NCBI GenBank assembly: GCA_035274845.1
Contig: DATENU010000020.1
Span: 1 to 64,000 of the forward strand
Direction: 5' to 3'
DNA length: 64,000 nt
Source of the DNA: Chthoniobacterales bacterium
GTDB taxonomy: Bacteria; Verrucomicrobiota; Verrucomicrobiia; Chthoniobacterales; UBA10450
In this document: in pieces, positions 50,815-64,000 of the stretch
How positions within the stretch are numbered: the first letter of the stretch is position 1
Layout of the letters: each line of letters opens with the position of its first letter
Translations under genes and position numbers: made by a program
The notes under the pieces: model-generated
What the model was told of the DNA's origin: nothing
What the model saw: the letters and a program-made list of their open reading frames with translations, nothing else
Databases searched by the model: none

Positions 50815-53800
50815 TTGCCACTGTCAGAGAGCCGAAGCACGTTGGTCGAAAGCATTTGGGATTTTGCTTTCGGATACGACTACTTTGTGTGCCACAGCTG
50901 GAAAGACTCGCACGCGTACGCTGAAGCGATAGTACGCGGATTGGAGCCAGACTTGCGGTGCTTTATCGACTCGCGGGATTTCGAAAAAGGTGCCTCATGG
51001 ACAATCCAAGGAGCGCAAGCATTACGACGCAGCACGATGCTAATTGTCGTGCTGAGCCCAGGCGCTTTATCTTCGGAACCGGTTTATGACGAAGTCACCT
51101 ATTTTGTAGCGAGGAGGCCTCATAGGCGAGTTGTCACGATTAATATAAACGAGACCTATTCCCAACTGCCGAGCGAGCACCGCTTGTACCGGTTGCTGTT
51201 CGCCGAGAGATTGCGGATTCCTGAGATTGTTGCGGGTCCCCTTGAGACTCCGTCTGAGTCGGTTCTGCTTGAACTAAAGCGGAACTTCAGATTCGTCCAT
51301 CAAAATACGAAAAGATTGCGAATCCTAAAAGTAACGATTGCACTTTTGCTGGGGCTGAGCCTCTGCGCATTGTTCGCGGCAGGATATTCCCAAAAGCAGC
51401 GGAACCTGGCGCTTCTTGAACGCAATATCGCTCGCGTGGGCGAGGGCAGATTTTATCTTGAGCGGGCTAAACAATCCATCAGCGGTGGAGTTGGCACTTA
51501 TCCATTGCTGCCGATTTATGCGTCTCGTGCCGTTGGTTTTCCAACAACGGGTCCTGTTGGCGAACGGAGCAAGCGCTTTCCCCAGCTTCTAAGTCCGGAT
51601 GCCACCCCAGACGAATATCAAGACGCTTTGCGTTTGGCCGGTTGGAACCTGGCCGCGCCGGTTCTCATCTGGTCGAGTCCGCTTGTCCGACAGCACGCGA
51701 ATTCCATTACGCTGCTTCAGTCGTTGCCCGGATCGCGCCTGTTCTCTCTGGATGCCTCCGGATATTCGCGTATTTGGAACTTGAAGACAAACACGATGGA
51801 AGGAGCCCGTCGGTTCGAGGGTGACGTCAGCCATGCCTGCGCAAGCTTGGATGAGAAGGTTTGGGCTGTCTGCAGCCACGATGGACAAATTGCCATTTTC
51901 AATGCGGATACTTGGTTTCCCATTCAGTCGTTAGCGGGCGGACTACGAGATATGTATTTGTCGCTGGACGAGCACGGGCGACGGTTAAGCATAACCGGAA
52001 AAGACACGGTGGAAATTTGGGAGAAGAGCACTGGGAATCGGCTTCAGATCATTAGACTACCTCAAACGAATCTTCCACAGTCCGGCCTGCTTAGTCCCAC
52101 GGGGGATTATGTTGCCGTAAAGTCGGACGGAAAAGTGACCGTTTACGATGTCGCAACAGGAAAAATCTTTCCTCACCTACCGTCCATTGCCGATACTGGC
52201 GTAAAGGCTTTTAGTTGGTGTGGCCGGACAGAGCGCCTGTTTCTTGTAGGAAATGACGGTAGCTGCTATATAACTGACATACGCGGAGCGACCGAGCGCA
52301 TCGCACCATCCGAACCGTGGGGCGATGGTTTCAGTTGTTTTGTCAGCCCGTCCGGGCGCTTCGCCGTTTCACGGCCAACTCCCGATTCTCGTTTAGGGAA
52401 AGCGATGCTTTGGGATCTGCCTGCGAAGAAATGTCTTGGTCCTTTGCAGCGCTTTCCTGGGAGAGGTCCGGTCTCGTCGTTTTGGTTCTCAAAGGACGAT
52501 CAATTGCTTTACGGTGGATCCACCTTTGGAACCATTACTGCCTGGCAGCTGCCGTCGGGCCGCTTGGACGCCCGATATGCGCACGGTCACGGCGGTCCTG
52601 TGTACGATGTGGCATTTTCCCCAGATGGGAGCATTTTCGCGAGCGCTGGCACGGATGGAACGATCGAAGTGTGGGATTCGGCAAATGGCTCTATCAAGCA
52701 GTCCGCCGCGTCTCCCCATTGGAATAGCGAGTACCGCCGGGTTACATTCTTGGGCAAGAGCGGCGTGTTGCTGGCACTGGACCGCGCCGGGCTGCTGGTG
52801 CGAATCCAGCTAGGGCACCCCGAGCCAATCCAGGAATCGTTTCAATTGCGACCGGGTCAGGCATTCGCCATGGCCGTCAATCCCGACACTGCGGAGGTCG
52901 CCGTAGGATTCACTTGCGGCCGGATCGAAATTCGCAAGCTTGCTTCGCTGCACGAAGTTGATCGGCAATACGAAATTGGAGCCCGCAACGATCCGGAATT
53001 TCGCGCTCTGGATGCCAAAATAAACCTTCCCCAGACGATCACGGCCTTGAGCTTTAGTCCCGGCGGTCGCCGGCTTGCATGTGCCATATCCGCGGCGCGC
53101 GCGGGGACCGACCAGAAGGTTCTTCTTCTGGATCCGGATGAGCCCGACCATAAGATTTTGATTATCGATCCGGAAACTGGGCAAAAACTCTTTGGCTTTG
53201 AGGGCGACAAGGAGGCGGTCAATGCAATCGTCTTCAGCCCAGTCGGAGACACGGTAGCGAGTGGGGGACTGGATGGAAAGATTCGTTTTTACGGCTGCTC
53301 CCCCACGCCCAAGACTTACCCTACCAAAGAGGTAGACGGAACGCCGATTACCTCCTTGGCCTATAGTATCGACGGACACTTTTTTGCCGCCGGAACGAAA
53401 TCCGGGAAAATTCGTCTTTGGGACACGACAATCAATCAAGCCGTCGCCGATTTATTAGCTCACTCAGATGCGGTGAATCGGATTGAGTTTTCGCCTGACG
53501 GGTCGTACCTGCTATCCAGTTCAGACGACGGCACCGTCAAGGCCTGGGAGATTGCGAGTGACAACGTCACCTTTGGATCTCATGTCCGCGGTCTGCTCGC
53601 CGGAGACTCCCACCATCCCACCATCGCGATCACTATGCACAATGGCGGCACCATGATCAACGTGGTGGGGGAAGAGACAGGAGGCATCACCGGACGGCAA
53701 CTTAGTGCTGTCGGTTTAGCGAGTTCATGGGCATACAATGCACAAGCAGATCTGCTCGTACTGGGAGGGAACGATCTTCCTGGGGACGGTCAAAGTGTCG

Positions 53801-54954
53801 AGCCCGATGAAACCGCAGGACGTTGTGAACTTTGGCGAACGACAGACATGGAAAAGATTGCCACGTGGACGCCACGACACAGGTTGGTAAAAGCGGTCGC
53901 GATATCGCCGTCCGGGCGGCATGTTGCGACCGCGGGTTGGGAGGGCGTCCGCCTCTGGGATACAGCCAATTTGCAGAGGCCGATCTGGGAGACGTCAGAA
54001 GTGCTCTTCGTCGAAACGATCGCCTTCAGTCCCGATGGAAAGCGACTCATCTTTTCGTCGAGCGCTGGAAAGGCGCGTGGCGCCCTCTTCGGTCCCAAAG
54101 CCAAAGCAGATCCGCGCGGCAATTTGTTCCTGGCTGATGCTTCCAATGGTGAAATCTTGCGGGGCGAGCAAGTGCCGACTTACTCGATTTTAGCGCTAGC
54201 CATTAACCCGCGCGGGGATCAACTGGCCGTCGGGACGAACGGGGCCGGAGTATTTACCTATGACCTGAATGAATCCTCTTTTGGATCTCGCGTTCATCAC
54301 GAGCAGTCCGGTTCGGTCGATGCCGTCGCGTTCAACGAGGACGGAACATATCTCGGGAGCAGCTCAAATGAAATGGGGTTGATGTTATGGCCGTGCGGAG
54401 TGAAGTCAGGATTTGTCCGTCAATTCCTCATCAAGGGTTGCAGCTCGATTGCCTTCGGTGCGGATCGGAAGACTTTGTGGCTCAGTGCGGGAAGAGATAT
54501 TCGGAAAGTCGATCTTCGCCCGGCCGATTATCTCCAGTATTTCTACCCAAACCAAACTATCGACCATGAGCCATCCAAGGATTGGTTTCAACTTGCCGGC
54601 GGGGGTTTTAATCCTTTAGACAAAAACAATTTTCTCGATCGCAACCAAGAGTTTGGATTCGTGAACCTGCGCGGAAACACCCTTGGCGAACAATATCGGT
54701 CCGCGGACGGAGAGGAGCTCCGGAATAGACTGTTCTGGCGCTTCTATAATGCTCGAAACTGGCCGGCCGCGTGGGCCCATTGCGATCAGACGAATAGCGA
54801 ACAGCGTACAAGCATGTTGTTGGGACTTGCGGCAGAAAATTTTGTTCCGACTGCGCGAACATTGCTGCAAGGCATATCGATTGAACCAGTTTCGCAGGTT
54901 GAGATTGAAGCAAGCAAAGGTATCAAGACAATGGATAAGGATAAGATTCCTTAA
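50815..54954 (+). CDS. TIR-transmembrane-WD40 repeat protein
   Basis: 1379 residues from TTG 50815. A TIR domain lies at ~20-150 (YDYFVCHSWKDSHAYAEAIV, RCFIDSRDFEKGASW, MLIVVLSPGALSSEPVYDEV). One membrane helix follows at ~168-192 (VTIALLLGLSLCALFAAGY), then a basic helical segment. A long array of WD40 blades runs from ~280 to ~1290, including VYDVAFSPDGSIFASAGTDG and VNRIEFSPDGSYLLSSSDDG, enough for two propellers. A ~90-residue C-terminal part follows. The Glu of NADase-type TIR domains is not obvious in ASWTIQGAQAL. Likely a sensor-type protein: propellers outside or inside the membrane detect a partner and the TIR signals. A defence role is inference from domain types. Confidence 0.8.
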   Translation: MPLSESRSTLVESIWDFAFGYDYFVCHSWKDSHAYAEAIVRGLEPDLRCFIDSRDFEKGASWTIQGAQALRRSTMLIVVLSPGALSSEPVYDEVTYFVARRPHRRVVTININETYSQLPSEHRLYRLLFAERLRIPEIVAGPLETPSESVLLELKRNFRFVHQNTKRLRILKVTIALLLGLSLCALFAAGYSQKQRNLALLERNIARVGEGRFYLERAKQSISGGVGTYPLLPIYASRAVGFPTTGPVGERSKRFPQLLSPDATPDEYQDALRLAGWNLAAPVLIWSSPLVRQHANSITLLQSLPGSRLFSLDASGYSRIWNLKTNTMEGARRFEGDVSHACASLDEKVWAVCSHDGQIAIFNADTWFPIQSLAGGLRDMYLSLDEHGRRLSITGKDTVEIWEKSTGNRLQIIRLPQTNLPQSGLLSPTGDYVAVKSDGKVTVYDVATGKIFPHLPSIADTGVKAFSWCGRTERLFLVGNDGSCYITDIRGATERIAPSEPWGDGFSCFVSPSGRFAVSRPTPDSRLGKAMLWDLPAKKCLGPLQRFPGRGPVSSFWFSKDDQLLYGGSTFGTITAWQLPSGRLDARYAHGHGGPVYDVAFSPDGSIFASAGTDGTIEVWDSANGSIKQSAASPHWNSEYRRVTFLGKSGVLLALDRAGLLVRIQLGHPEPIQESFQLRPGQAFAMAVNPDTAEVAVGFTCGRIEIRKLASLHEVDRQYEIGARNDPEFRALDAKINLPQTITALSFSPGGRRLACAISAARAGTDQKVLLLDPDEPDHKILIIDPETGQKLFGFEGDKEAVNAIVFSPVGDTVASGGLDGKIRFYGCSPTPKTYPTKEVDGTPITSLAYSIDGHFFAAGTKSGKIRLWDTTINQAVADLLAHSDAVNRIEFSPDGSYLLSSSDDGTVKAWEIASDNVTFGSHVRGLLAGDSHHPTIAITMHNGGTMINVVGEETGGITGRQLSAVGLASSWAYNAQADLLVLGGNDLPGDGQSVEPDETAGRCELWRTTDMEKIATWTPRHRLVKAVAISPSGRHVATAGWEGVRLWDTANLQRPIWETSEVLFVETIAFSPDGKRLIFSSSAGKARGALFGPKAKADPRGNLFLADASNGEILRGEQVPTYSILALAINPRGDQLAVGTNGAGVFTYDLNESSFGSRVHHEQSGSVDAVAFNEDGTYLGSSSNEMGLMLWPCGVKSGFVRQFLIKGCSSIAFGADRKTLWLSAGRDIRKVDLRPADYLQYFYPNQTIDHEPSKDWFQLAGGGFNPLDKNNFLDRNQEFGFVNLRGNTLGEQYRSADGEELRNRLFWRFYNARNWPAAWAHCDQTNSEQRTSMLLGLAAENFVPTARTLLQGISIEPVSQVEIEASKGIKTMDKDKIP

Positions 54955-55018: not shown

Positions 55019-57496
55019 TTATTCAGCCTGTAGCATCCGCGCCGGATCGATTCTGGTCGCACGCCATGCAGGAATGATAGTTGCCAATGCAGCCGACCCG
55101 ATGAGTACAACGAGTACGGAGCACATTGTCAGAGGATCAAAGGCGGCTACTCCGTAGAATATGTCATCCGAAGGCTGGCCTTGGTAAACGGCCGACCGAA
55201 CAACACGCACAAGTCCCACGGATGCGGGAAGTCCGACGAGAAAGCCGACAAGTAATAGACCGGCGACTTTCCGGAAGACGAGCGACATTACTTGCTGTCG
55301 ATTAGCGCCAATCGCCATTCGCAAAGCGATCTCTCGGGTACGCTGAGCCACCCAAAATGCAAGCGTCCCGTAGATTCCGACGGCCGTCGCGACCAAAGCG
55401 AACATGGCAAAAAGTACCAGCAATGTCCCATTGAACCTTCGTGCCAGTTGTGACGCGCGAATGCGTTCTGCCATCATTTCCATATCATAAACCGGCTGAC
55501 TCGGATCCAGCTTCAAAATGGCGTCGCGCACACGATCTGCCAAGCCCGGCGATTTAGTGCGCGTCTCGGCCACTACAAACATGGACGGCACCGGGCTTTG
55601 CGCGAAAGGAATATACACGACGTTGTGAGGCTGCTCGGTGACATCCCACTGTTTGCCGCTGGCGACAACTCCCACGATTTGCGCAACGCGCGGCTCCACA
55701 TTATCCGGATCGAGGCGCTCGGCCGGTTCGATCTCGAGTTGCTTGCCTATGGGAGACTCTGATGGGAAAAGTTGACGCCCGAGATGTTCGTTAATCATGA
55801 TTACGGGCGGCGCTCCCTGGACGTCCGTAACGGTAAACGATCTGCCGAGGGTGATTCGGACTCCGAGTGTGCGAAAATATTCCGGAGTCACAAGGACGGT
55901 TTGAGCGTCCATTTGCTCGCCGGTATTCTGTGCTCGACCTGGTTGAGTTATGCGATTTCCCATTGCTCCCGAAGTAAATGGCAAGTGGCTGACCGCGGCC
56001 ACCTCGCCTATACCGGGGGTATTCTTGAGGCGGTCGAAGACCATGGCATAAAAGGTGGCGATCTGGTCACCTGTCTTATATCGAGGGCCCTGCGGAAAAA
56101 GATGAAAGCTGAGCAGATTCCCAGACTGGAAGCCGATATCAGTCTGTTGTAACCGCCAAAGGCTCCGAATTAAGAGGCCGGCGCCTGATAATAAAACCAC
56201 GGTTAGCACTACCTGGGAAGTAACAAGGAAACCTCTCAGTCGCTGCCGTCCCAAGCCAGCGCCGCCGGACCGGTCACTCTGGCGCAGCCAGTCGTTGATT
56301 TGAATTCCGCCCGAAAAGAGTAAAGGCACGATGGCAAAAAATATGGCCATGCCTGCCGAAAGCGCTGCGATGCCGAACAATACACTCGTATCAATTCGCA
56401 CCTCAGCCAGACGCGGGATATCAGCCGGGGCAACGGACAAAACAGCCCGCCGAAACCCATCCGCGATCCAGATGCCGAGAACCGTACCACCGAATACAAG
56501 AATGATACTTTCGCTTGCCGAAAGACGCAGGATGCTCCAGCGGGTCGCGCCTAGCGCCGCCCGAATCGCCAACTCTTGTTGGCGGCCTGTCCACCTCGCC
56601 AAGAGAAGGCTGGCTACGTTTGTACAGGCAATGAGCAGAACGAAAACGATCGCCGCTTGGAGTATGACTAGAAGGCCTCGATATCCTCCAATCCGTGTCT
56701 CCAGCAAATCTGTCATCTTAACCTCAGGAACGCCATTCACGCCCGGATAAATCTTCGCGAGCTGTGCGGCAATGTTATTCATTTGGGCTTGAGTCTCCGC
56801 AAGGGTGACTGCCGATTTCAATCTGCCGATGACAGTAAGAAGATGCAGATCGCGGTTCTGCATCTCCTTTGAGTTAAAACGAAGCGGAAGAATGACATCT
56901 GCTGTCCGAAAACCGAAGGATTCGAAAATCGGCGGGGCTACCCCGACGATATTGTAGGTTTCTCGGTCGACCGTAATTTTTTGGCCGATCACATCGTGAC
57001 GTGAAGCAAAATGCCTCTTCCATAAAGCATCGCCGATAATTGCGACGGATCGTTCTTCCGTTCCCAATTCATCCTCGACAAACCAACGACCAAGCCGGGG
57101 CTTAAGTCGCAATATCGAAAACAAACTGCCGCTTACACTCCGCACCCCAATGCGCTCGGCGCCATAATTGGTGGCCAAGGTAGCCTCTGTCGCAGCGGTT
57201 GAAGCGGATAAGCCGTCAAAGACTCGGGCTTGCTCGACCCAGTCCTTATAATTCGGTCCAGACACATCCCAGAGAAGTTCGCGTTGCCTTGAGGGTTTTT
57301 CCCATAAAACGACAAGCCTTCCGGAATCTTCGAAGGGGAGTGGCTTCAGCAATACTCCATTAAGCAAGCTAAAGATCGCAGCGTTCGCACCGATTCCAAT
57401 CGCAAGGGAAAGAACCACTGCGATCGTAAATGTAGGACTCTTCGCAACAAGTCTCGCGCTGTAGAAAAGATCGCGAAGAAAACCGTTCATTGACAT
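55019..57496 (-). CDS. ADOP/MacB-type ABC transporter permease
   Basis: 825 residues with the ADOP-family layout: N-terminal FTIAVVLSLAIGIGANAAIF, a MacB-like periplasmic domain (to ~260), three helices of an FtsX domain (with LARWTGRQQELAIRAALGAT), a second periplasmic domain, and a second FtsX domain ending in WRATRIDPARMLQAE. ADOP permeases usually work with a separate ATPase, and none is adjacent. It starts 23 bases after the subunit-3-like gene in the same direction, so it is probably the last gene of the lasso operon and could help export or self-protection. Confidence 0.88.
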   Translation of the reverse strand: MSMNGFLRDLFYSARLVAKSPTFTIAVVLSLAIGIGANAAIFSLLNGVLLKPLPFEDSGRLVVLWEKPSRQRELLWDVSGPNYKDWVEQARVFDGLSASTAATEATLATNYGAERIGVRSVSGSLFSILRLKPRLGRWFVEDELGTEERSVAIIGDALWKRHFASRHDVIGQKITVDRETYNIVGVAPPIFESFGFRTADVILPLRFNSKEMQNRDLHLLTVIGRLKSAVTLAETQAQMNNIAAQLAKIYPGVNGVPEVKMTDLLETRIGGYRGLLVILQAAIVFVLLIACTNVASLLLARWTGRQQELAIRAALGATRWSILRLSASESIILVFGGTVLGIWIADGFRRAVLSVAPADIPRLAEVRIDTSVLFGIAALSAGMAIFFAIVPLLFSGGIQINDWLRQSDRSGGAGLGRQRLRGFLVTSQVVLTVVLLSGAGLLIRSLWRLQQTDIGFQSGNLLSFHLFPQGPRYKTGDQIATFYAMVFDRLKNTPGIGEVAAVSHLPFTSGAMGNRITQPGRAQNTGEQMDAQTVLVTPEYFRTLGVRITLGRSFTVTDVQGAPPVIMINEHLGRQLFPSESPIGKQLEIEPAERLDPDNVEPRVAQIVGVVASGKQWDVTEQPHNVVYIPFAQSPVPSMFVVAETRTKSPGLADRVRDAILKLDPSQPVYDMEMMAERIRASQLARRFNGTLLVLFAMFALVATAVGIYGTLAFWVAQRTREIALRMAIGANRQQVMSLVFRKVAGLLLVGFLVGLPASVGLVRVVRSAVYQGQPSDDIFYGVAAFDPLTMCSVLVVLIGSAALATIIPAWRATRIDPARMLQAE

Positions 57497-57519
57497 CTAA
57501 AGGGAAACAGCGGCAGCTC

Positions 57520-58038
57520 TTACGGTTCAGGAACTGGTGGGCATCCTTCGAAGGATGACACGTAGTCGTTGCCCATGTACCGCAGATACTGGTATCCAAT
57601 TGCGCTCGTAAAAAACCCATCGAGCGTGAGTCGACGGATTAGAGCGAAAAAGGGAAAACCAGGCTGAAGCGCCGGGTAGCGAGCGGCCTTTTCCCGATGC
57701 GCGAGGATGTCCAGGACCTCGTGTTGTTCCGCCTCGGAACAGTTCGCGAAAACGCGACCGTGGCGCATGGAATAGATGGAATCGAGCCATCGAAGTCCGC
57801 CTGAAATACATAAACCGATTGAAGCCTTTTCGCTCGCAAGTAAACTGATAAACTCTGGTGCGCCAGCCTCTACAGCCCCGGGCGAGTCCGCGTCCGGTGG
57901 GATGATAAGGTCGCAGAGTACCCGCAAGGTCCGCAGCTGATGCTCGTCGAGTTGCTCCGGTTTTGACTCGTGGCTTGTCGTCCCCACAGAAGGAATAGAC
58001 GGTTCAAATCCACTAAGGCGCGGGCCCGACTCAGTCAT
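57520..58038 (-). CDS. Gluconate 2-dehydrogenase subunit 3-like protein
   Basis: 172 residues. The core LRVLCDLIIPPDADSPGAVEAGAPEFI-type start and the helical remainder (GLRWLDSIYSMRHGRVFANC, FFALIRRLTLDGFFTS, IGYQYLRYMGN) fit the family that forms the small subunit of membrane gluconate and related sugar dehydrogenases (PF13618). No Tat or Sec signal is visible; about 30 polar residues precede the domain. Three bases separate it from the GMC gene, its normal partner. Confidence 0.82.
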   Translation of the reverse strand: MTESGPRLSGFEPSIPSVGTTSHESKPEQLDEHQLRTLRVLCDLIIPPDADSPGAVEAGAPEFISLLASEKASIGLCISGGLRWLDSIYSMRHGRVFANCSEAEQHEVLDILAHREKAARYPALQPGFPFFALIRRLTLDGFFTSAIGYQYLRYMGNDYVSSFEGCPPVPEP

Positions 58039-58041
58039 AAA

Positions 58042-59703
58042 CTAGAGATACCCTCTTTTCACCTGGTTAAGCAAGAACTCCGAAGCACGCCAAGCCAGGG
58101 CGAGAATCGTTAACGTAACCGGCTTGTCAGAACTCGAAACGAAAGAACTCGCATCCATTACAAACAGATTTTTTACGTCATGAGCCTGGCAAAAGCCGTT
58201 CAAGGCAGCGGCTCTTGGATCACGGCCCATCCTAATCGTACCCTGCTCCTGAAACCCCTCCCCGCCAGGATTGCCGACTAATTCCCCAGGATCGGGAATG
58301 CAGGTACCGCCTCCCGCCTCCACGATAGCGCGGAACGAACGCTGCATATCGTCTATCATCTTGAACTCATTGTCCCCCAAAGCGAATTGAAAACGGAGTG
58401 TCGGAATCCCCCAACGGTCCATGAGGTTGTTGTTGATCTCGCAATAACTTTCATCGTTCGAAATCATCTCGCCCGCTGCTATGAAATTAATGTAGCAGCC
58501 ATAAACATCGCGGCAACGACGCTTCAATTCAATCCCGTAACCCTCGTGTCTTTCGACCTCAAGGGCGAATGCGCTTACGAGGGGCACGTTTCTTCCTCCA
58601 TTGAAGAGAATGTGATATCCGCGCAAGAAATCGTTCTTGGCTCCAGCTTTCCACCAGGGAATCCAAAGGTGGGGTCTCCCCGTTCCATCGTGATTGTGAG
58701 GCGGAACTCTTGTTAGTTGTGGGAAAAACCCCGCGGCTCTACTCACCACAGAATCGCGAAGGTAACGGCCAACGACCCCAGAGGAATTTGCAACACCATC
58801 GGGAAATATCGTTGACCTCGAGTTTAACAGGAGTCGCGTAGATTCGCAGGTGCCCGCCGCTAAGACAACGACCCGCGCTCGCACCTGTCGCTCAGAATAG
58901 CTCTGCTTGTCGATGTACGACACCGCCCGAATTCGCGCGTCGCTACTCACGAGTAGCTCCCGTGCCATAGCGTTGGTGATCAAGGTTAAGCGGCCGGTTG
59001 CCAACGCCGATGGAATCAAGACCTGGGCCGAGCTAAAGCACGAATTCGATTTGCAGCCTCGATAACATTGGCCGCAATAGTGGCAGGCAGGCCGCCCGCG
59101 ATGCGGCTGAGTTAGAATAGAGGCAGTGCACGGCACGCACGGAATTCCGACTTTCTGGCAGGCCTTTCCGACAAAAAGCTCAGTACACCTCGGTTTAGGT
59201 GGAGGCATGTTACCCGCTCCGAATACCCCAATAAGATCTTCGACCCTGTCGTAGTAGGGCGACAAGTCTTCGTAAGTAATCGGCCAGTCTTCACCATGCC
59301 CGTCAAGTGACCGACCAATAAAGTCATGCGGCTGAAAACGGGCCACGCCTTGGCCCCAGTGGTTCGTTCGACCGCCCACTCCGCGAGCTCGAAACCAATT
59401 AAAGGGCTTGCGCCGGCTACGGGTATACGGTTCTCCTGGAATCGTAAAGCCAGTTTGGGGCGGATATAAATCGTCACCGTCCCCTCCTTTCGACAGACCA
59501 CGGCGCGGAAGTTCGTACACCCACATGTGCTGTTTGAAATCAACTTCAGGGTTGATAGAGGGGCCTGCCTCCAACAACACTACATCAAGGCCGGCCTCGG
59601 TGAGGAGTTTCGCTGACATTCCACCCGCGGCCCCGGAGCCGATAATGCAGACGTCGTAGATCCCAGCGTTCGGACCTGCAAATGACATTGATTGCGAGAT
59701 CAA
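58042..59703 (-). CDS. GMC-family FAD oxidoreductase
   Basis: 553 residues. The dinucleotide-binding VCIIGSGAAGGMSAKLL (residues ~18-34) is followed by LLEAGP, RARGVGGRTNHWGQGVARF, and a Cys-rich stretch CHYCGQCYRGCKSNSC (~215-230). The FAD-closing GTIRMGRDP, AHDVKNLFVMDASSFVSSSD and TLTILALAWRA complete it. It is close to the gluconate-dehydrogenase/sorbose-type large subunits. The His before GT.RMG and the Asn of the NPT motif, usual active-site residues, seem replaced (Q-E-Q-G; DKPVTLT). Substrate unknown. Operon position suggests a tailoring reaction on the lasso peptide, or an unrelated sugar/alcohol oxidation. Confidence 0.85.
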   Translation of the reverse strand: MISQSMSFAGPNAGIYDVCIIGSGAAGGMSAKLLTEAGLDVVLLEAGPSINPEVDFKQHMWVYELPRRGLSKGGDGDDLYPPQTGFTIPGEPYTRSRRKPFNWFRARGVGGRTNHWGQGVARFQPHDFIGRSLDGHGEDWPITYEDLSPYYDRVEDLIGVFGAGNMPPPKPRCTELFVGKACQKVGIPCVPCTASILTQPHRGRPACHYCGQCYRGCKSNSCFSSAQVLIPSALATGRLTLITNAMARELLVSSDARIRAVSYIDKQSYSERQVRARVVVLAAGTCESTRLLLNSRSTIFPDGVANSSGVVGRYLRDSVVSRAAGFFPQLTRVPPHNHDGTGRPHLWIPWWKAGAKNDFLRGYHILFNGGRNVPLVSAFALEVERHEGYGIELKRRCRDVYGCYINFIAAGEMISNDESYCEINNNLMDRWGIPTLRFQFALGDNEFKMIDDMQRSFRAIVEAGGGTCIPDPGELVGNPGGEGFQEQGTIRMGRDPRAAALNGFCQAHDVKNLFVMDASSFVSSSDKPVTLTILALAWRASEFLLNQVKRGYL

Positions 59704-59727
59704 GCTTAATGTAGCTGGCTACCTAGC

Positions 59728-61638
59728 CTAGGACAAGATGCAGGAAAGAGGCCTGGACGCGCGGATCAACGTCAATTCTTGTTCAACTCCGGACGATGAA
59801 GCCTTTCGCCTTTCGACAAGGTTACTTTCGCATATGTTCCGGTACATTTCATTTCGTAGGCTCACTTCGCGGTGCGAGCCCTCATCGACCAGCCGACCAC
59901 CGGTCATGAAAATTATGCGATCTACCGACTTCATCACGACAGGGTTATGGGTCACGAACAGCAACGTCGCCGGCCCTGCCAGGTCAGTGAGGTTTCTTAA
60001 AACGCGCTCTTCGGTCGAAGCATCCAGCGCAGAAGTAGACTCGTCCAGCACCAACATGCGTGGTTCTCGCAGAATGGCTCTCGCGAGAGCCACGCGCTGA
60101 CGTTCCCCACCCGAGAGTTTTGTGGCTCTCGGACCTAACTGCTCGTTCCACCCCCCCCGCAAAGCGGACAAAACGGGCACAAGCTCCGCGACCTCGACGG
60201 CATGCTCCAATTTTCTGGGAGTGATCGCCGAACGCCCGCATAATAAATTGTCGCGAAAAGAACCCTCGAAAAGGATTGGCTCCTGGGGGACGACTAACAC
60301 GCTGGAACGCAGGCTGCGTAGGTCCAAGGAGCGAATGTCGAAGCCGTCGACCTCGATCGAACCTTTCTGAACGTCGTAAAGCCGTGCTAAGAGCCTCGTG
60401 ATTGTACTTTTGCCGCTGCCGGTTCTTCCCACGATCGCCACTCTTTCCCCAGCATCTACCGCGAAGCTCACCGACTCGATTCCGATCCTGCCGTCCTGGT
60501 AGGTAAATGAAACATTCTCAAAATGCACGGTTGCGGCTTCAATTCTCTCTAGTGTTATCGGCGAGACGGGATTCTCAATCGCACTTGGCGTCTCCAAGAC
60601 TTCACGGACGCGCCGAACGCTTACGCGTATCCGTTGCAGCTTTGTATCAAGCTCAATCAATCCGGCGATAGGCTCGAATAGCCTCATCAAATAGCCCCAA
60701 AACGCTACCAATCCACCCACCGTCAAGATTCCAGACATGACTTGAAAGCCACCAGCGACAAGCATCAGACCAATCCCCGCACCCATTACCAGAAGAGAAA
60801 GGCCGGAATAGAGCATCTCCGTTCGTCGTCTGCTCATTTGCGCGATCATGGATCGGCGAGCTGAAAACAAGAAACGCCGTGCTTGGGCGCGCTCGTTACA
60901 AAGAAGCTGCGACTGCGCAATGGCTGGAACTTGTTCCTGGAGGAACGAACTTCGAGCAGCAGATGCGGTTTGCACATTGTCTGACTGTGTCGCAACCAGA
61001 CGCCGATAACGGTAACGCACCAAGACGAAGACTGGTGCTAATGGCAAACAAATTACGGCAAGCCTCGCGTTCAGCATGAACATTGCCGCTAAGTTGAGCA
61101 CAAGGAAGATTGTCGATCGAAATGAGGAGGAAAACAGATCTTCACCCGCCCGGCCGATTTGCTCCACGTCCTGTTCAAGTCGGAAAACGAGCTGGCCCGG
61201 CGGCGTATTATCATGGTACGCACTCGATTGGCGCTGAAGATGTCGCAACGTCTTGAATCGAAGGCGCACCGCCAGCCGTTGCGCCGCCTCGGTTCCGACT
61301 TTTGCGCCTTGGACCCCGAAAAACAGTCTGCCGCCATATGCTAGAAGAAATCCACAGCCCGCCGCCGCCAACGCTGTAGCGTCCCTTCCCGGGATGACCC
61401 TATCAATAACCCATCGCATCAGCAGTGGATCAACTAAGCTGATGAGGCCGCTGCCAGTCGTGTAGAAAAGACTTAGAATGTATAGTGGCAAGTAACGGCG
61501 AGCGTTACCAATTAGCCACTTAATGTCGTTGAACATTTTGAATAAACTGAACCGCTTTGAATAAACTTCAGATACCCATAGCACGGCTAGGTCAAATGCG
61601 TTGAGAACAACTGATGCAGAGTTAGCTACGCTCTGCAC
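59728..61638 (-). CDS. ABC exporter, lasso-peptide type (ATPase-permease fusion)
   Basis: 636 residues from GTG 61638; an internal ATG at 61536 is an equally likely start. The transmembrane domain (~45-335) has the six-helix exporter pattern. The ATPase has Walker A VAIVGRTGSGKSTITRLLAR, Q-loop VVPQEPILFEG, signature KLSGGERQRVALARAIL, Walker B MLVLDESTSALD and His-loop LFVTHNPV. No C39 peptidase domain, consistent with lasso D proteins, where the leader is removed by a separate protein. It begins 20 bases after the second precursor. Confidence 0.9.
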   Translation of the reverse strand: MQSVANSASVVLNAFDLAVLWVSEVYSKRFSLFKMFNDIKWLIGNARRYLPLYILSLFYTTGSGLISLVDPLLMRWVIDRVIPGRDATALAAAGCGFLLAYGGRLFFGVQGAKVGTEAAQRLAVRLRFKTLRHLQRQSSAYHDNTPPGQLVFRLEQDVEQIGRAGEDLFSSSFRSTIFLVLNLAAMFMLNARLAVICLPLAPVFVLVRYRYRRLVATQSDNVQTASAARSSFLQEQVPAIAQSQLLCNERAQARRFLFSARRSMIAQMSRRRTEMLYSGLSLLVMGAGIGLMLVAGGFQVMSGILTVGGLVAFWGYLMRLFEPIAGLIELDTKLQRIRVSVRRVREVLETPSAIENPVSPITLERIEAATVHFENVSFTYQDGRIGIESVSFAVDAGERVAIVGRTGSGKSTITRLLARLYDVQKGSIEVDGFDIRSLDLRSLRSSVLVVPQEPILFEGSFRDNLLCGRSAITPRKLEHAVEVAELVPVLSALRGGWNEQLGPRATKLSGGERQRVALARAILREPRMLVLDESTSALDASTEERVLRNLTDLAGPATLLFVTHNPVVMKSVDRIIFMTGGRLVDEGSHREVSLRNEMYRNICESNLVERRKASSSGVEQELTLIRASRPLSCILS

Positions 61639-61657
61639 CAGCTGTGACAGCCACTGC

Positions 61658-61798
61658 CTAGACGGTGTCGTCGTCGGAGTCTATGTTCGGATCCTTCCTG
61701 CCGCTGCAATTGCAGCAGTCAGAGAACGGTCCGCCAGCTCCCATTACGAGTTCTTCTGCCTGGCCGATCTCGACAATCTCAGGTGCTTCGTATTTCAA
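61658..61798 (-). CDS. Lasso-type RiPP precursor peptide A2
   Basis: 46 residues from a TTG start with a perfect AAAGGAGGTG site eight bases upstream. The leader MKYEAPEIVEIGQAEELVM has the lasso spacing Y-x2-P-x-I-x3-G-x7-G (Val where Thr is usual at -2). The predicted core is GAGGPFSDCCNCSGRKDPN followed by IDSDDDTV: Gly1 and Asp8 could close an eight-residue ring; Cys9, Cys10 and Cys12 follow; the tail is acidic. It differs from A1 at nine positions by eye, only one of them in the leader. Placement between cyclase and exporter supports the call. Confidence 0.82.
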   Translation of the reverse strand: MKYEAPEIVEIGQAEELVMGAGGPFSDCCNCSGRKDPNIDSDDDTV

Positions 61799-61806
61799 TT
61801 GTGTTT

Positions 61807-61816
61807 CACCTCCTTT
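61807..61816 (-). promoter_or_regulatory. Shine-Dalgarno site of precursor A2
   Basis: AAAGGAGGTG on the minus strand, eight bases from the TTG at 61798. It matches the anti-Shine-Dalgarno sequence almost fully and decides the TTG start, for which there is no ATG alternative near the leader. Confidence 0.85.
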
Positions 61817-61841
61817 CGGTCATCGTTCGATAAGCGACTAC

Positions 61842-61982
61842 TTAAATGGTGTCGTCGTCGGAGTCTATGTCCGGAAGTTTTCTGCTGCTGCAAGTGCAGC
61901 AATCAGCGAACGCCCCCCCGGCGCCCATTACGAGTTCTTCCGCCTGGCCGATTTCGACAATCTCTGGTGTTTCGTATTTCAA
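61842..61982 (-). CDS. Lasso-type RiPP precursor peptide A1
   Basis: 46 residues from TTG 61982, which overlaps the cyclase stop as TTGA, with AAAGGAGGTG eight bases upstream. The leader MKYETPEIVEIGQAEELVM is nearly identical to A2. The predicted core is GAGGAFADCCTCSSRKLPD followed by IDSDDDTI: Gly1-Asp8 ring, CCTC just after the ring, acidic C-terminal IDSDDDTI. A longer frame upstream is the cyclase gene read in another frame and was rejected. Alternatives such as sactipeptide or lanthipeptide are not supported because no radical-SAM or Lan enzyme is present. Confidence 0.83.
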   Translation of the reverse strand: MKYETPEIVEIGQAEELVMGAGGAFADCCTCSSRKLPDIDSDDDTI

Positions 61983-63949
61983 TTGTGTTTCACCTCCTTT
62001 CGGTCGTCGTTTGATAAATCTATCCGAGGGCGGAGACTTAGCCCGTTTAGGTCTCGGCATCCGCCTGACGAAAACGCGTCTAACGCCGACTTGGTTCTGT
62101 CGGTCGAGCGCCGTTCGCGCCCGCGCAGCCAAAATTCCAACGAAAGGACGCGCAGCAATGACGGCGTTGCACTGCAGAGTCCATGTTTTGCTCGAAAGAG
62201 TTCGCGGAGGAATGATTCTCCGTGGATGTAGCCCAGTTTGGAGACTTCGGCATCGCTAAACATGTGCACTAAGTCGGACCAAGTACGGGACAGACCCCGC
62301 AATAGTGACTCATCCGGACCTTGTTTGCTTTTACGTAATCGTATGGCCTCCGGCAAAACGCCTTTCATGGCCCGGCGATGAATGGATCGGGATTCGGTCG
62401 GGCGAAGTTTTTGGCCGGCCGGAATGCCGATTAGGAATTCGACAAGGCATCTGTCTAGGAATGGATAGCTAACATCACAACATCCTTGCTCGCGGTAATA
62501 GCATTGGGACGTAAAGGAAATCGCCTCATCAAGCAGTTTACGTTGTTGTCCGCGCACAACGTCGAATAGTAGTCCAGCGGGCTGCCTGTTCACTCCACGC
62601 TCCGGTCGCCCCAGGCGCTCCACTAGAACAGGGCCCATCCACGACCTCGGGAAAATGGTGCTAGGTATTTGCGGTCTCCGTAGGCAAATAGACATCAGCG
62701 GCCCGACCAGGCCTGTCCAGAGCAACTCCATCGTGGTGGCTTTGTGCGCATTAGCCCAGTTTTTGGCTGCGCGGAAAGCTGCGAACGGTTTCCCTCGCTT
62801 CATCAGAGAAATTAGGTCCGGGCAAAGGACCTCCTCGTTCAGGGTTACTTGATCCCCTCCGAAGCCAGATAACAGGCTCGAAGCGCCCAGCGATTCGAGA
62901 GTTCTCTGCAATCCTGCAAACATATCGTGAAAGAGCTCGAGACAGCTCGGTCGGAATGCCATTGACGGAGACAGCCGCACTATATTGTGATCTTCGAGAA
63001 AGAGCGTCCTCGCTTCTCGGAACTGCTCGACTTCCCTGATGAACCGTCGCTCGTCCGATGTTCGCGATCCGTCGTAAAGGTAAGAGACGGTTGCGATTTT
63101 CCCGACGTCCTTCCCCAGCACTCCAGATAACTGATCGGCGACGCAGACAATGGACGAAGAATCCAAGCCGCCACTTAGCTCGGCGATCGACACGCCGGGC
63201 ATTGTTAATCGTCGCTCCACGCTTTGAGTGAACAACTCTCGAAAGCGAGCCTCATAATCGGCGTCGCTTTCCAATCTTACCTCGTCGCATGACTCAGCAC
63301 TCCAGAAACGGCGGTGACTCACATTTTGCTCGCTAATGCACGTGACATGACCGGGCCGTATGGCAAAAATACCACGGTAAGGAGTCTTGCCATGGTCTTC
63401 AGTCGCCAGGAGATAGCTGGCGAGGTATTCCTTATCAAGTTCTGGGGCGCCTCCGAAATGCTCTACGAAATAACTTAATTCCGAACACCAAATCGCCATC
63501 GAATCGTCAATGTAATAATATAATGGTCGGGTGCCGAACGGATCTCGCGCCAGATATAATTGTCTGGTTACCGGATCCCAACAGGCTAGTGCGTAGTCAC
63601 CTATGAGACGCGACCACAGCGCCGGCCCTAGGGCTGAATATGCCTTCGCCACTAACGGAGCGTCTTCGACCCCCTCGTCATGCCATTCACAGGCCGCTGC
63701 AATACTCGATCGGTTATCAAGACGTCCATCCCATGCGAGAAGAACCTTGTTGTCATCGGACACCGGTTGAGTCGGCAACGCCAGATCCCTCATTGTTGTC
63801 ATTGACATTGCGACCCCTGCTGCTCGCGCGCTGCGCACTCGCCGCCGAGGGTCCAAGCGAAGGAGATGCGCTTCCAAGCCGGTACAAAGCTCGTGGGGAT
63901 CCTGCGAGCGTTGCCTAAAGAAAATGCCGCCGTGCCGAGTGACATTCAT
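61979..63949 (-). CDS. Lasso peptide cyclase (asparagine synthetase-like, C protein)
   Basis: 656 residues. An N-terminal Ntn-glutaminase-like domain (~1-190) lacks the Cys at position 2, so it cannot be a glutaminase. The AsnB domain has the PP-loop SIAELSGGLDSSSIVCVAD, LLSGFGGDQVT, and the C-terminal SYPFLDRCLVEFLIGIPAGQ and RKSKQGPD segments. Such cyclases adenylate the ring Asp/Glu and form the isopeptide bond with the core N-terminus. It is coupled to A1 by a TTGA overlap, and its last codons encode the A1 ribosome site. ATG at 63949. The B proteins should lie upstream, past the window edge. Confidence 0.85.
   Translation of the reverse strand: MNVTRHGGIFFRQRSQDPHELCTGLEAHLLRLDPRRRVRSARAAGVAMSMTTMRDLALPTQPVSDDNKVLLAWDGRLDNRSSIAAACEWHDEGVEDAPLVAKAYSALGPALWSRLIGDYALACWDPVTRQLYLARDPFGTRPLYYYIDDSMAIWCSELSYFVEHFGGAPELDKEYLASYLLATEDHGKTPYRGIFAIRPGHVTCISEQNVSHRRFWSAESCDEVRLESDADYEARFRELFTQSVERRLTMPGVSIAELSGGLDSSSIVCVADQLSGVLGKDVGKIATVSYLYDGSRTSDERRFIREVEQFREARTLFLEDHNIVRLSPSMAFRPSCLELFHDMFAGLQRTLESLGASSLLSGFGGDQVTLNEEVLCPDLISLMKRGKPFAAFRAAKNWANAHKATTMELLWTGLVGPLMSICLRRPQIPSTIFPRSWMGPVLVERLGRPERGVNRQPAGLLFDVVRGQQRKLLDEAISFTSQCYYREQGCCDVSYPFLDRCLVEFLIGIPAGQKLRPTESRSIHRRAMKGVLPEAIRLRKSKQGPDESLLRGLSRTWSDLVHMFSDAEVSKLGYIHGESFLRELFRAKHGLCSATPSLLRVLSLEFWLRGRERRSTDRTKSALDAFSSGGCRDLNGLSLRPRIDLSNDDRKEVKHN
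61991..62000 (-). promoter_or_regulatory. Shine-Dalgarno site of precursor A1
   Basis: AAAGGAGGTG inside the last codons of the cyclase gene, eight bases before TTG 61982. The identical site and spacing recur 184 bases downstream for A2, so the duplicated unit includes the ribosome site. Confidence 0.85.
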
Positions 63950-64000
63950 CTGTTCAAAACCGATCTAGCTCGGGGTACAAGCCTTTCACACGAGCGTTGT

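Follow-up and report, generated by a model that had tools for sequence, protein, structure and literature searches.

In lasso peptide biosynthesis, the RRE captures the leader of the precursor, the B2 peptidase cleaves, the cyclase (C) forms the macrolactam, and the transporter (D) exports the product. One described type relies on Ile/Val(-2) precursors, which have a Y(-17)/P(-14) leader, Ile or Val at position -2, and a Gly1-Asp8 ring (PMC10368454); its clusters include bsf of Bradymonas sediminis and predicted examples in Acidobacteriaceae and Sphingomonadales. Lasso peptides of classes I, III, and IV bear disulfides. As far as the account in PMC9266682 goes, disulfides in known lasso peptides often arise without a dedicated enzyme, and the oxidoreductases of disulfide-bearing lasso clusters are either dispensable or still untested. 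A 2026 review describes the route of disulfide formation in lasso peptides as unknown (PMC13352647). The other kind of system relevant here is the DET-type dehydrogenase module, in which the catalytic subunit carries FAD and a 3Fe-4S cluster and the TAT signal of a “hitchhiker” subunit exports both (PMC6719666). Here, we describe a locus in which genes of both kinds lie side by side on one strand.

The window, meaning the whole stretch of DNA that was analyzed, comprises positions 1-64000 (64,000 nucleotides) of contig C20 (DATENU010000020.1), part of a 4.54-Mb, 24-contig assembly of a Chthoniobacterales bacterium. A preliminary description of this DNA had read seven minus-strand genes as a lasso-type operon, running from a cyclase through two precursors, an ABC exporter, and an oxidoreductase pair to an ADOP permease, and all seven were recovered in their places. 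It had also proposed following the contig to the right in search of B1 (RRE) and B2 genes; both were found, fused into one gene immediately upstream of the cyclase gene. This B gene is the eighth of the set and begins the operon, 4 bases upstream of C. Its 3′ end lies in the window (63954..64000, minus strand) and the remainder beyond the window edge, the full-length gene being at contig C20:63954-64808 (L004:3954-4808 in the locus coordinates also used below) and encoding 284 aa. The protein scored above the cut-off for the lasso B2 model (NF033537 lasso_biosyn_B2, 67.8 bits, cut-off 33), which identifies it as a transglutaminase-like leader peptidase, and for PF13471 (67.4 bits, cut-off 26). 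Its residues 46-111 matched PF05402 PqqD (29.8 bits, cut-off 23.4), indicating that an RRE domain is present. A LuxR-type HTH reading frame (GerE, 65.9 bits) on the plus strand at contig C20:64558-65619 (L004:4558-5619) is divergent to the B gene and overlaps its antisense; if the true gene is shorter, it is a possible regulator of the operon.

The AsnB-like cyclase (61979..63949, minus strand) has a glutaminase-type domain without Cys at position 2 and keeps the SGGLDSS ATP motif. Its best match was the lasso cyclase model NF033535, at 240 bits, which is below the strict cut-off of that model (525). In a maximum-likelihood tree, it joined four acidobacterial lasso cyclases (support 94/98), and seven Asn-synthetase-like proteins from the host’s own bacterial family formed a separate clade (100/100). 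The possibility raised earlier that the cyclase might group with true asparagine synthetases was therefore not borne out.

The two precursors, A1 (61842..61982) and A2 (61658..61798), are each 46 aa long, lie on the minus strand, and start with TTG. The start of A1 overlaps the stop of C (TTGA), as first described. A near-identical ribosome-binding stretch, AAAGGAGGTGAAACACAATTG, precedes both genes. The leaders, MKYETPEIVEIGQAEELVM in A1 and MKYEAPEIVEIGQAEELVM in A2, share the form MKYE(T/A)PEIVEIGQAEELVM, and both scored just below the cut-off of 19 for NF033521 lasso_leader_L3 (16.2 bits for A1 and 17.3 bits for A2). Both copies have a YxxPxL-type leader and an acidic residue within core positions 7-9: Tyr is at -17, Pro at -14, Ile at -12, and Val at -2, followed by Gly1 and Asp8. 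Since these residues match the published arrangement (PMC10368454), the cores were predicted as GAGGAFADCCTCSSRKLPDIDSDDDTI and GAGGPFSDCCNCSGRKDPNIDSDDDTV. Each core has Cys at positions 9, 10, and 12 (CCxC) after the Gly1-Asp8 segment, and an acidic tail; for both products, we infer the Gly1-Asp8 ring, the threading, and the state of the cysteines. The masses calculated for the two otherwise unmodified lassos are 2714.126 and 2726.064 ([M+2H]2+ 1358.070 and 1364.039), and a single disulfide would lower the doubly charged values to 1357.062 and 1363.032. In common with the Ile/Val(-2) clusters (PMC10368454), this locus has the Y(-17)xxP(-14)x[L/I](-12) leader, the hydrophobic residue at -2, and, by prediction, the Gly1-Asp8 ring. 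In contrast to them, the operon showed no kinase gene, B1 and B2 form a single fused protein, the core contains CCxC, and a GMC/Gdh3 pair lies downstream. Multiple precursors also occur at an acidobacterial lasso locus (L199:4773-5386), where two or three near-identical Ile(-2)-type precursors (MKYETPELVALTPAINAIQ...) stand beside two tandem cyclases.

The ABC exporter D (59728..61536, minus strand) is a fused TMD-NBD protein (PF00664 and PF00005) that scored above no NCBIfam equivalog cut-off. Its likely start is the ATG at 61536 (MFNDIKWLIG...), with a GTG at 61638 as the alternative. The choice matters for the earlier statement that no gap in the operon exceeds 43 bases, which holds with the GTG start but not with the likelier ATG, from which the A2-to-D gap is 121 bases. 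Within this gap, between the precursors and the exporter, is a minus-strand RNA stem-loop with a 15-bp stem (61607..61645; MFE -33.1, z -3.2), equaled by 2 of 200 shuffles. No T-run follows it, and it is possibly an attenuator or a stabilizer of the precursor mRNA. Judged from its sequence, with an RRE-B2 protein upstream and a cyclase that groups with lasso cyclases, the B(RRE-B2 fusion)-C-A1-A2-D set is a genuine lasso peptide operon, and the initial lasso reading was right.

Downstream of the exporter is a GMC flavoprotein of the DET-type FAD-dehydrogenase family (58042..59688, minus strand), which starts at the ATG at 59688 or possibly at a TTG at 59703; residue numbers refer to the TTG-start protein. 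PF00732 and PF05199 were above cut-off, and the AlphaFold model (pLDDT 84.6, pTM 0.90) matched fructose dehydrogenase (FDH; Z 49) and B. cepacia FAD-GDH (BcGDH; Z 42.5), both of GMC fold. We compared the protein with 87 homologues in an alignment with 189 highly conserved columns. The cofactor-binding features are retained: the FAD motif, the FAD-linking His115 (83/87 homologues), and the 3Fe-4S ligands C207, C213, and C217 (87/87), which correspond to Cys212/218/222 of BcGDH. The catalytic His and Asn of DET-type FAD dehydrogenases are not. Gln485 replaces the His and Pro528 the Asn, both of which are present in 86 of the 87 homologues (the other row is truncated); in the alignment, the two positions fall on His476 and Asn519, the catalytic pair of BcGDH. 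The Gln485 site also corresponds to the His mutated in the FDH structure 8k6j (H1147A). Since the alignment shows a residue other than Asn at the second position of FDH, the loss of the His carries more weight as an argument. Three further residues invariant in 87/87 homologues are replaced, namely Glu366 (E366L), Arg410 (R410A), and Pro232, and two cysteines, C192 (creating CVPC) and C222, occur at positions where none of the homologues has one. In total, the protein departs from the consensus at 35 of the 189 highly conserved columns, more than any other full-length homologue, in a reading frame that is unbroken over 553 codons. A second strongly diverged GMC/Gdh3 pair, with 34 deviations at conserved columns, was noted in a Bryobacterales MAG (L049:5109-7411); we rejected it as a second case of an altered pair, as it keeps the catalytic His/Asn and its partner bears a TAT signal.

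The partner gene (57520..58038, minus strand) encodes a Gluconate_2-dh3 “hitchhiker” small subunit (Gdh3), the only Gdh3 in the genome. It retains 27 of 30 conserved positions, and a sequence search returned no relative of solved structure at E<=1. An RR/KR pattern is present in about 90 of 94 Gdh3 homologues by simple pattern search; here there is no RR motif, and hence no TAT signal that would export the pair. An in-frame stop lies two codons upstream of the ATG, which rules out an N-terminal extension or a missed start. Compared with the gamma-alpha complex of B. cepacia FAD-GDH (6a2u, 8grj; PMC6719666) and Gluconobacter FDH (7w2j, 8k6j), the pair shares the GMC fold, the FAD-linking His, the 3Fe-4S cysteines, and the association with a Gluconate_2-dh3 subunit. 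It differs from them in having Gln/Pro in place of the catalytic His/Asn and a small subunit without TAT; in addition, no gene for a cytochrome subunit was seen next to the pair.

The last of the genes originally assigned to the operon, the ADOP permease (55019..57496, minus strand; TIGR03434, 788.8 bits, cut-off 622.3), begins 23 bases after Gdh3. The proposal that it is a member of the cluster very probably does not hold. With this ADOP protein as the query, the genome contains 41 ADOP-type matches at E<=1e-30, and orthologues at 66% and 59% identity (next, 38%) stand among unrelated genes, without lasso genes, in two congeners (G413 and G407). We consequently rejected the permease as a part of the lasso cluster; it is an ordinary member of the ADOP permeases (TIGR03434), not a lasso-specific one, and is most likely, on this comparison, a resident neighbor that may be read through. 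Many of the ADOP matches in the genome form tandem arrays on contigs C10 and C24 (e.g., C10:160477-210207). Beyond the permease, a 1379-aa TIR + WD40 protein is encoded on the plus strand (50815-54954), converging on the operon, and has no match in seven other genomes of the genus. Upstream of the operon, a TIR-TPR protein (L004:8813-10978) and a DUF4062/AAA/TPR protein (L004:11864-15013) are encoded on the plus strand. The lasso genes thus sit among many TIR-/NLR-like genes, and PADLOC recognized no defense system.

Lasso clusters are rare in this lineage. The host is the only one among 213 genomes of the order with a lasso B2 above cut-off; in a sample of the phylum, 13 of 388 genomes had one. 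Among 83 genomes of the family, again only the host gave a close match to the cyclase. From the single B2 in the order and the single close cyclase in the family, the cluster looks imported into the host lineage. The nearest relatives of the GMC/Gdh3 pair are acidobacterial (55-58% identity, versus 42-44% to verrucomicrobial ones), so that the affinities of both the cyclase and the GMC protein point toward Acidobacteria. Plasmid records contained GMC relatives at up to 43.5% and only two B2 matches, both weak.

To what extent the oxidoreductase pair belongs to the operon, as initially described, is a matter of balance. For membership speak the shared strand and the short gaps and, indirectly, the changes in this copy, namely an altered active site and a missing export signal; against it speaks the lack of recurrence, for the same C-A-A-D-GMC-subunit3 order was seen elsewhere neither in the best 80 GMC loci of public genomes nor in about 35 other lasso loci. 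By established lasso biochemistry, the RRE domain of B would capture the precursor leader, the B2 peptidase would cleave after V(-2)-M(-1), the cyclase would link Gly1 to Asp8, and the exporter would carry the products out. It is possible that the oxidoreductase pair is part of the lasso pathway. If so, the GMC/Gdh3 pair would have reached the lasso genes by horizontal transfer and would remain cytosolic, its sugar or alcohol dehydrogenase work lost. It could no longer oxidize alcohols with the help of a base, as its relatives do, and would most likely act as a repurposed flavin/Fe-S redox pair that keeps its electron path and matures the CCxC peptides. Flavin-mediated thiol oxidation requires no His/Asn pair, and for this reason, oxidation of peptide (or carrier) thiols would be the simplest chemistry to propose. 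Taken as a whole, a lasso operon with a transferred, cytosolic GMC/Gdh3 redox pair maturing CCxC peptides, and with the ADOP permease as a resident neighbor, seems to us about evenly poised between right and wrong. A bolder claim is that the pair became a cytosolic redox tailoring enzyme of CCxC lassos, such as a thiol oxidase that introduces a disulfide or a different sulfur cross-link, which would make it the first Fe-S flavoprotein pair to take part in maturing a lasso peptide. We consider this rather unlikely.

The nearest precedent for a maturing role, as far as the account of it goes, is FilE of the felipeptin cluster, a class IV lasso system that likewise combines a gene for a flavin-dependent oxidoreductase with a product that has tail cysteines (PMC9266682); its role is unproven. 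The likeness is one of description only, and that account reports no Fe-S cluster or hitchhiker subunit for FilE, unlike the GMC/Gdh3 pair. Within the scope of the same source, the frequent enzyme-independence of lasso disulfides counts against the proposal of a dedicated pair. Among the papers searched, none joined lasso peptides with GMC oxidoreductase, gluconate 2-dehydrogenase, or glucose-methanol-choline.

The lasso B-C-A-A-D set may instead be complete alone, with GMC/Gdh3 an unrelated same-strand neighbor, either ordinary or a diverged metabolic enzyme, which strikes us as somewhat doubtful. GMC + Gdh3 is a common module in Acidobacteria, Gemmatimonadota, and Bacteroidota, and it behaves as an autonomous two-gene unit: the two genes are adjacent in nearly all of the best 80 GMC loci, none of which has lasso genes nearby. 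Conversely, neither gene was found beside lasso genes in the about 35 other lasso loci among the matches listed (about 15 verrucomicrobial and 20 from GMC-bearing Acidobacteria or Gemmatimonadota genomes, with two lasso matches left out), several of which lie on short contigs. In the loci searched, therefore, the two sets of genes do not make up a cluster type that recurs. Expression downstream of the 121-base gap and its stem-loop may also drop. However, the exporter and GMC genes are separated by only 24 bases (39 with the ATG start of GMC), with no terminator-like site found between them, GMC and Gdh3 are 3 bases apart on the same strand, and this is the sole Gdh3 of the genome. Moreover, the loss of TAT and of the catalytic residues is unseen in free-standing homologues.

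A degenerate passenger has to be taken seriously as a rival: the linkage is an adjacency seen in one genome, and 35 of 189 conserved columns are changed. In this case, the GMC gene would be a decaying or dead copy left after horizontal transfer, or would encode a structural or chaperone pseudo-enzyme, with no redox chemistry. The absence of both catalytic residues and a divergence beyond that of any other full-length homologue fit this account, but the intact 553-codon frame, the retained FAD motif, FAD-linking His, and Fe-S ligands, the conserved partner, and the confidently predicted fold do not, and we regard it as improbable. The idea that there is no lasso system at all, and that an Asn-synthetase-like enzyme merely stands beside two unrelated small peptides, could draw on the sub-threshold scores of the precursors and the cyclase but is close to refuted by the RRE-B2 fusion above curated cut-offs directly upstream, the position of the cyclase in the tree, and a leader/core spacing that fits the characterized Ile/Val(-2) type (PMC10368454).

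The lasso core itself is of a known kind; what would be new, if the pair acts, are the CCxC twin cores together with an altered GMC/hitchhiker pair. A three-cysteine lasso core beside a flavin/Fe-S enzyme stripped of its old function makes the question of disulfide formation testable. A part for the pair in the pathway would give the GMC/hitchhiker module, so far known as an exported sugar dehydrogenase, a new role. Should the GMC/Gdh3 pair prove to be a passenger, there would still be a lasso cluster whose Cys-rich twin precursors are unusual, in a lineage that very rarely carries such clusters.
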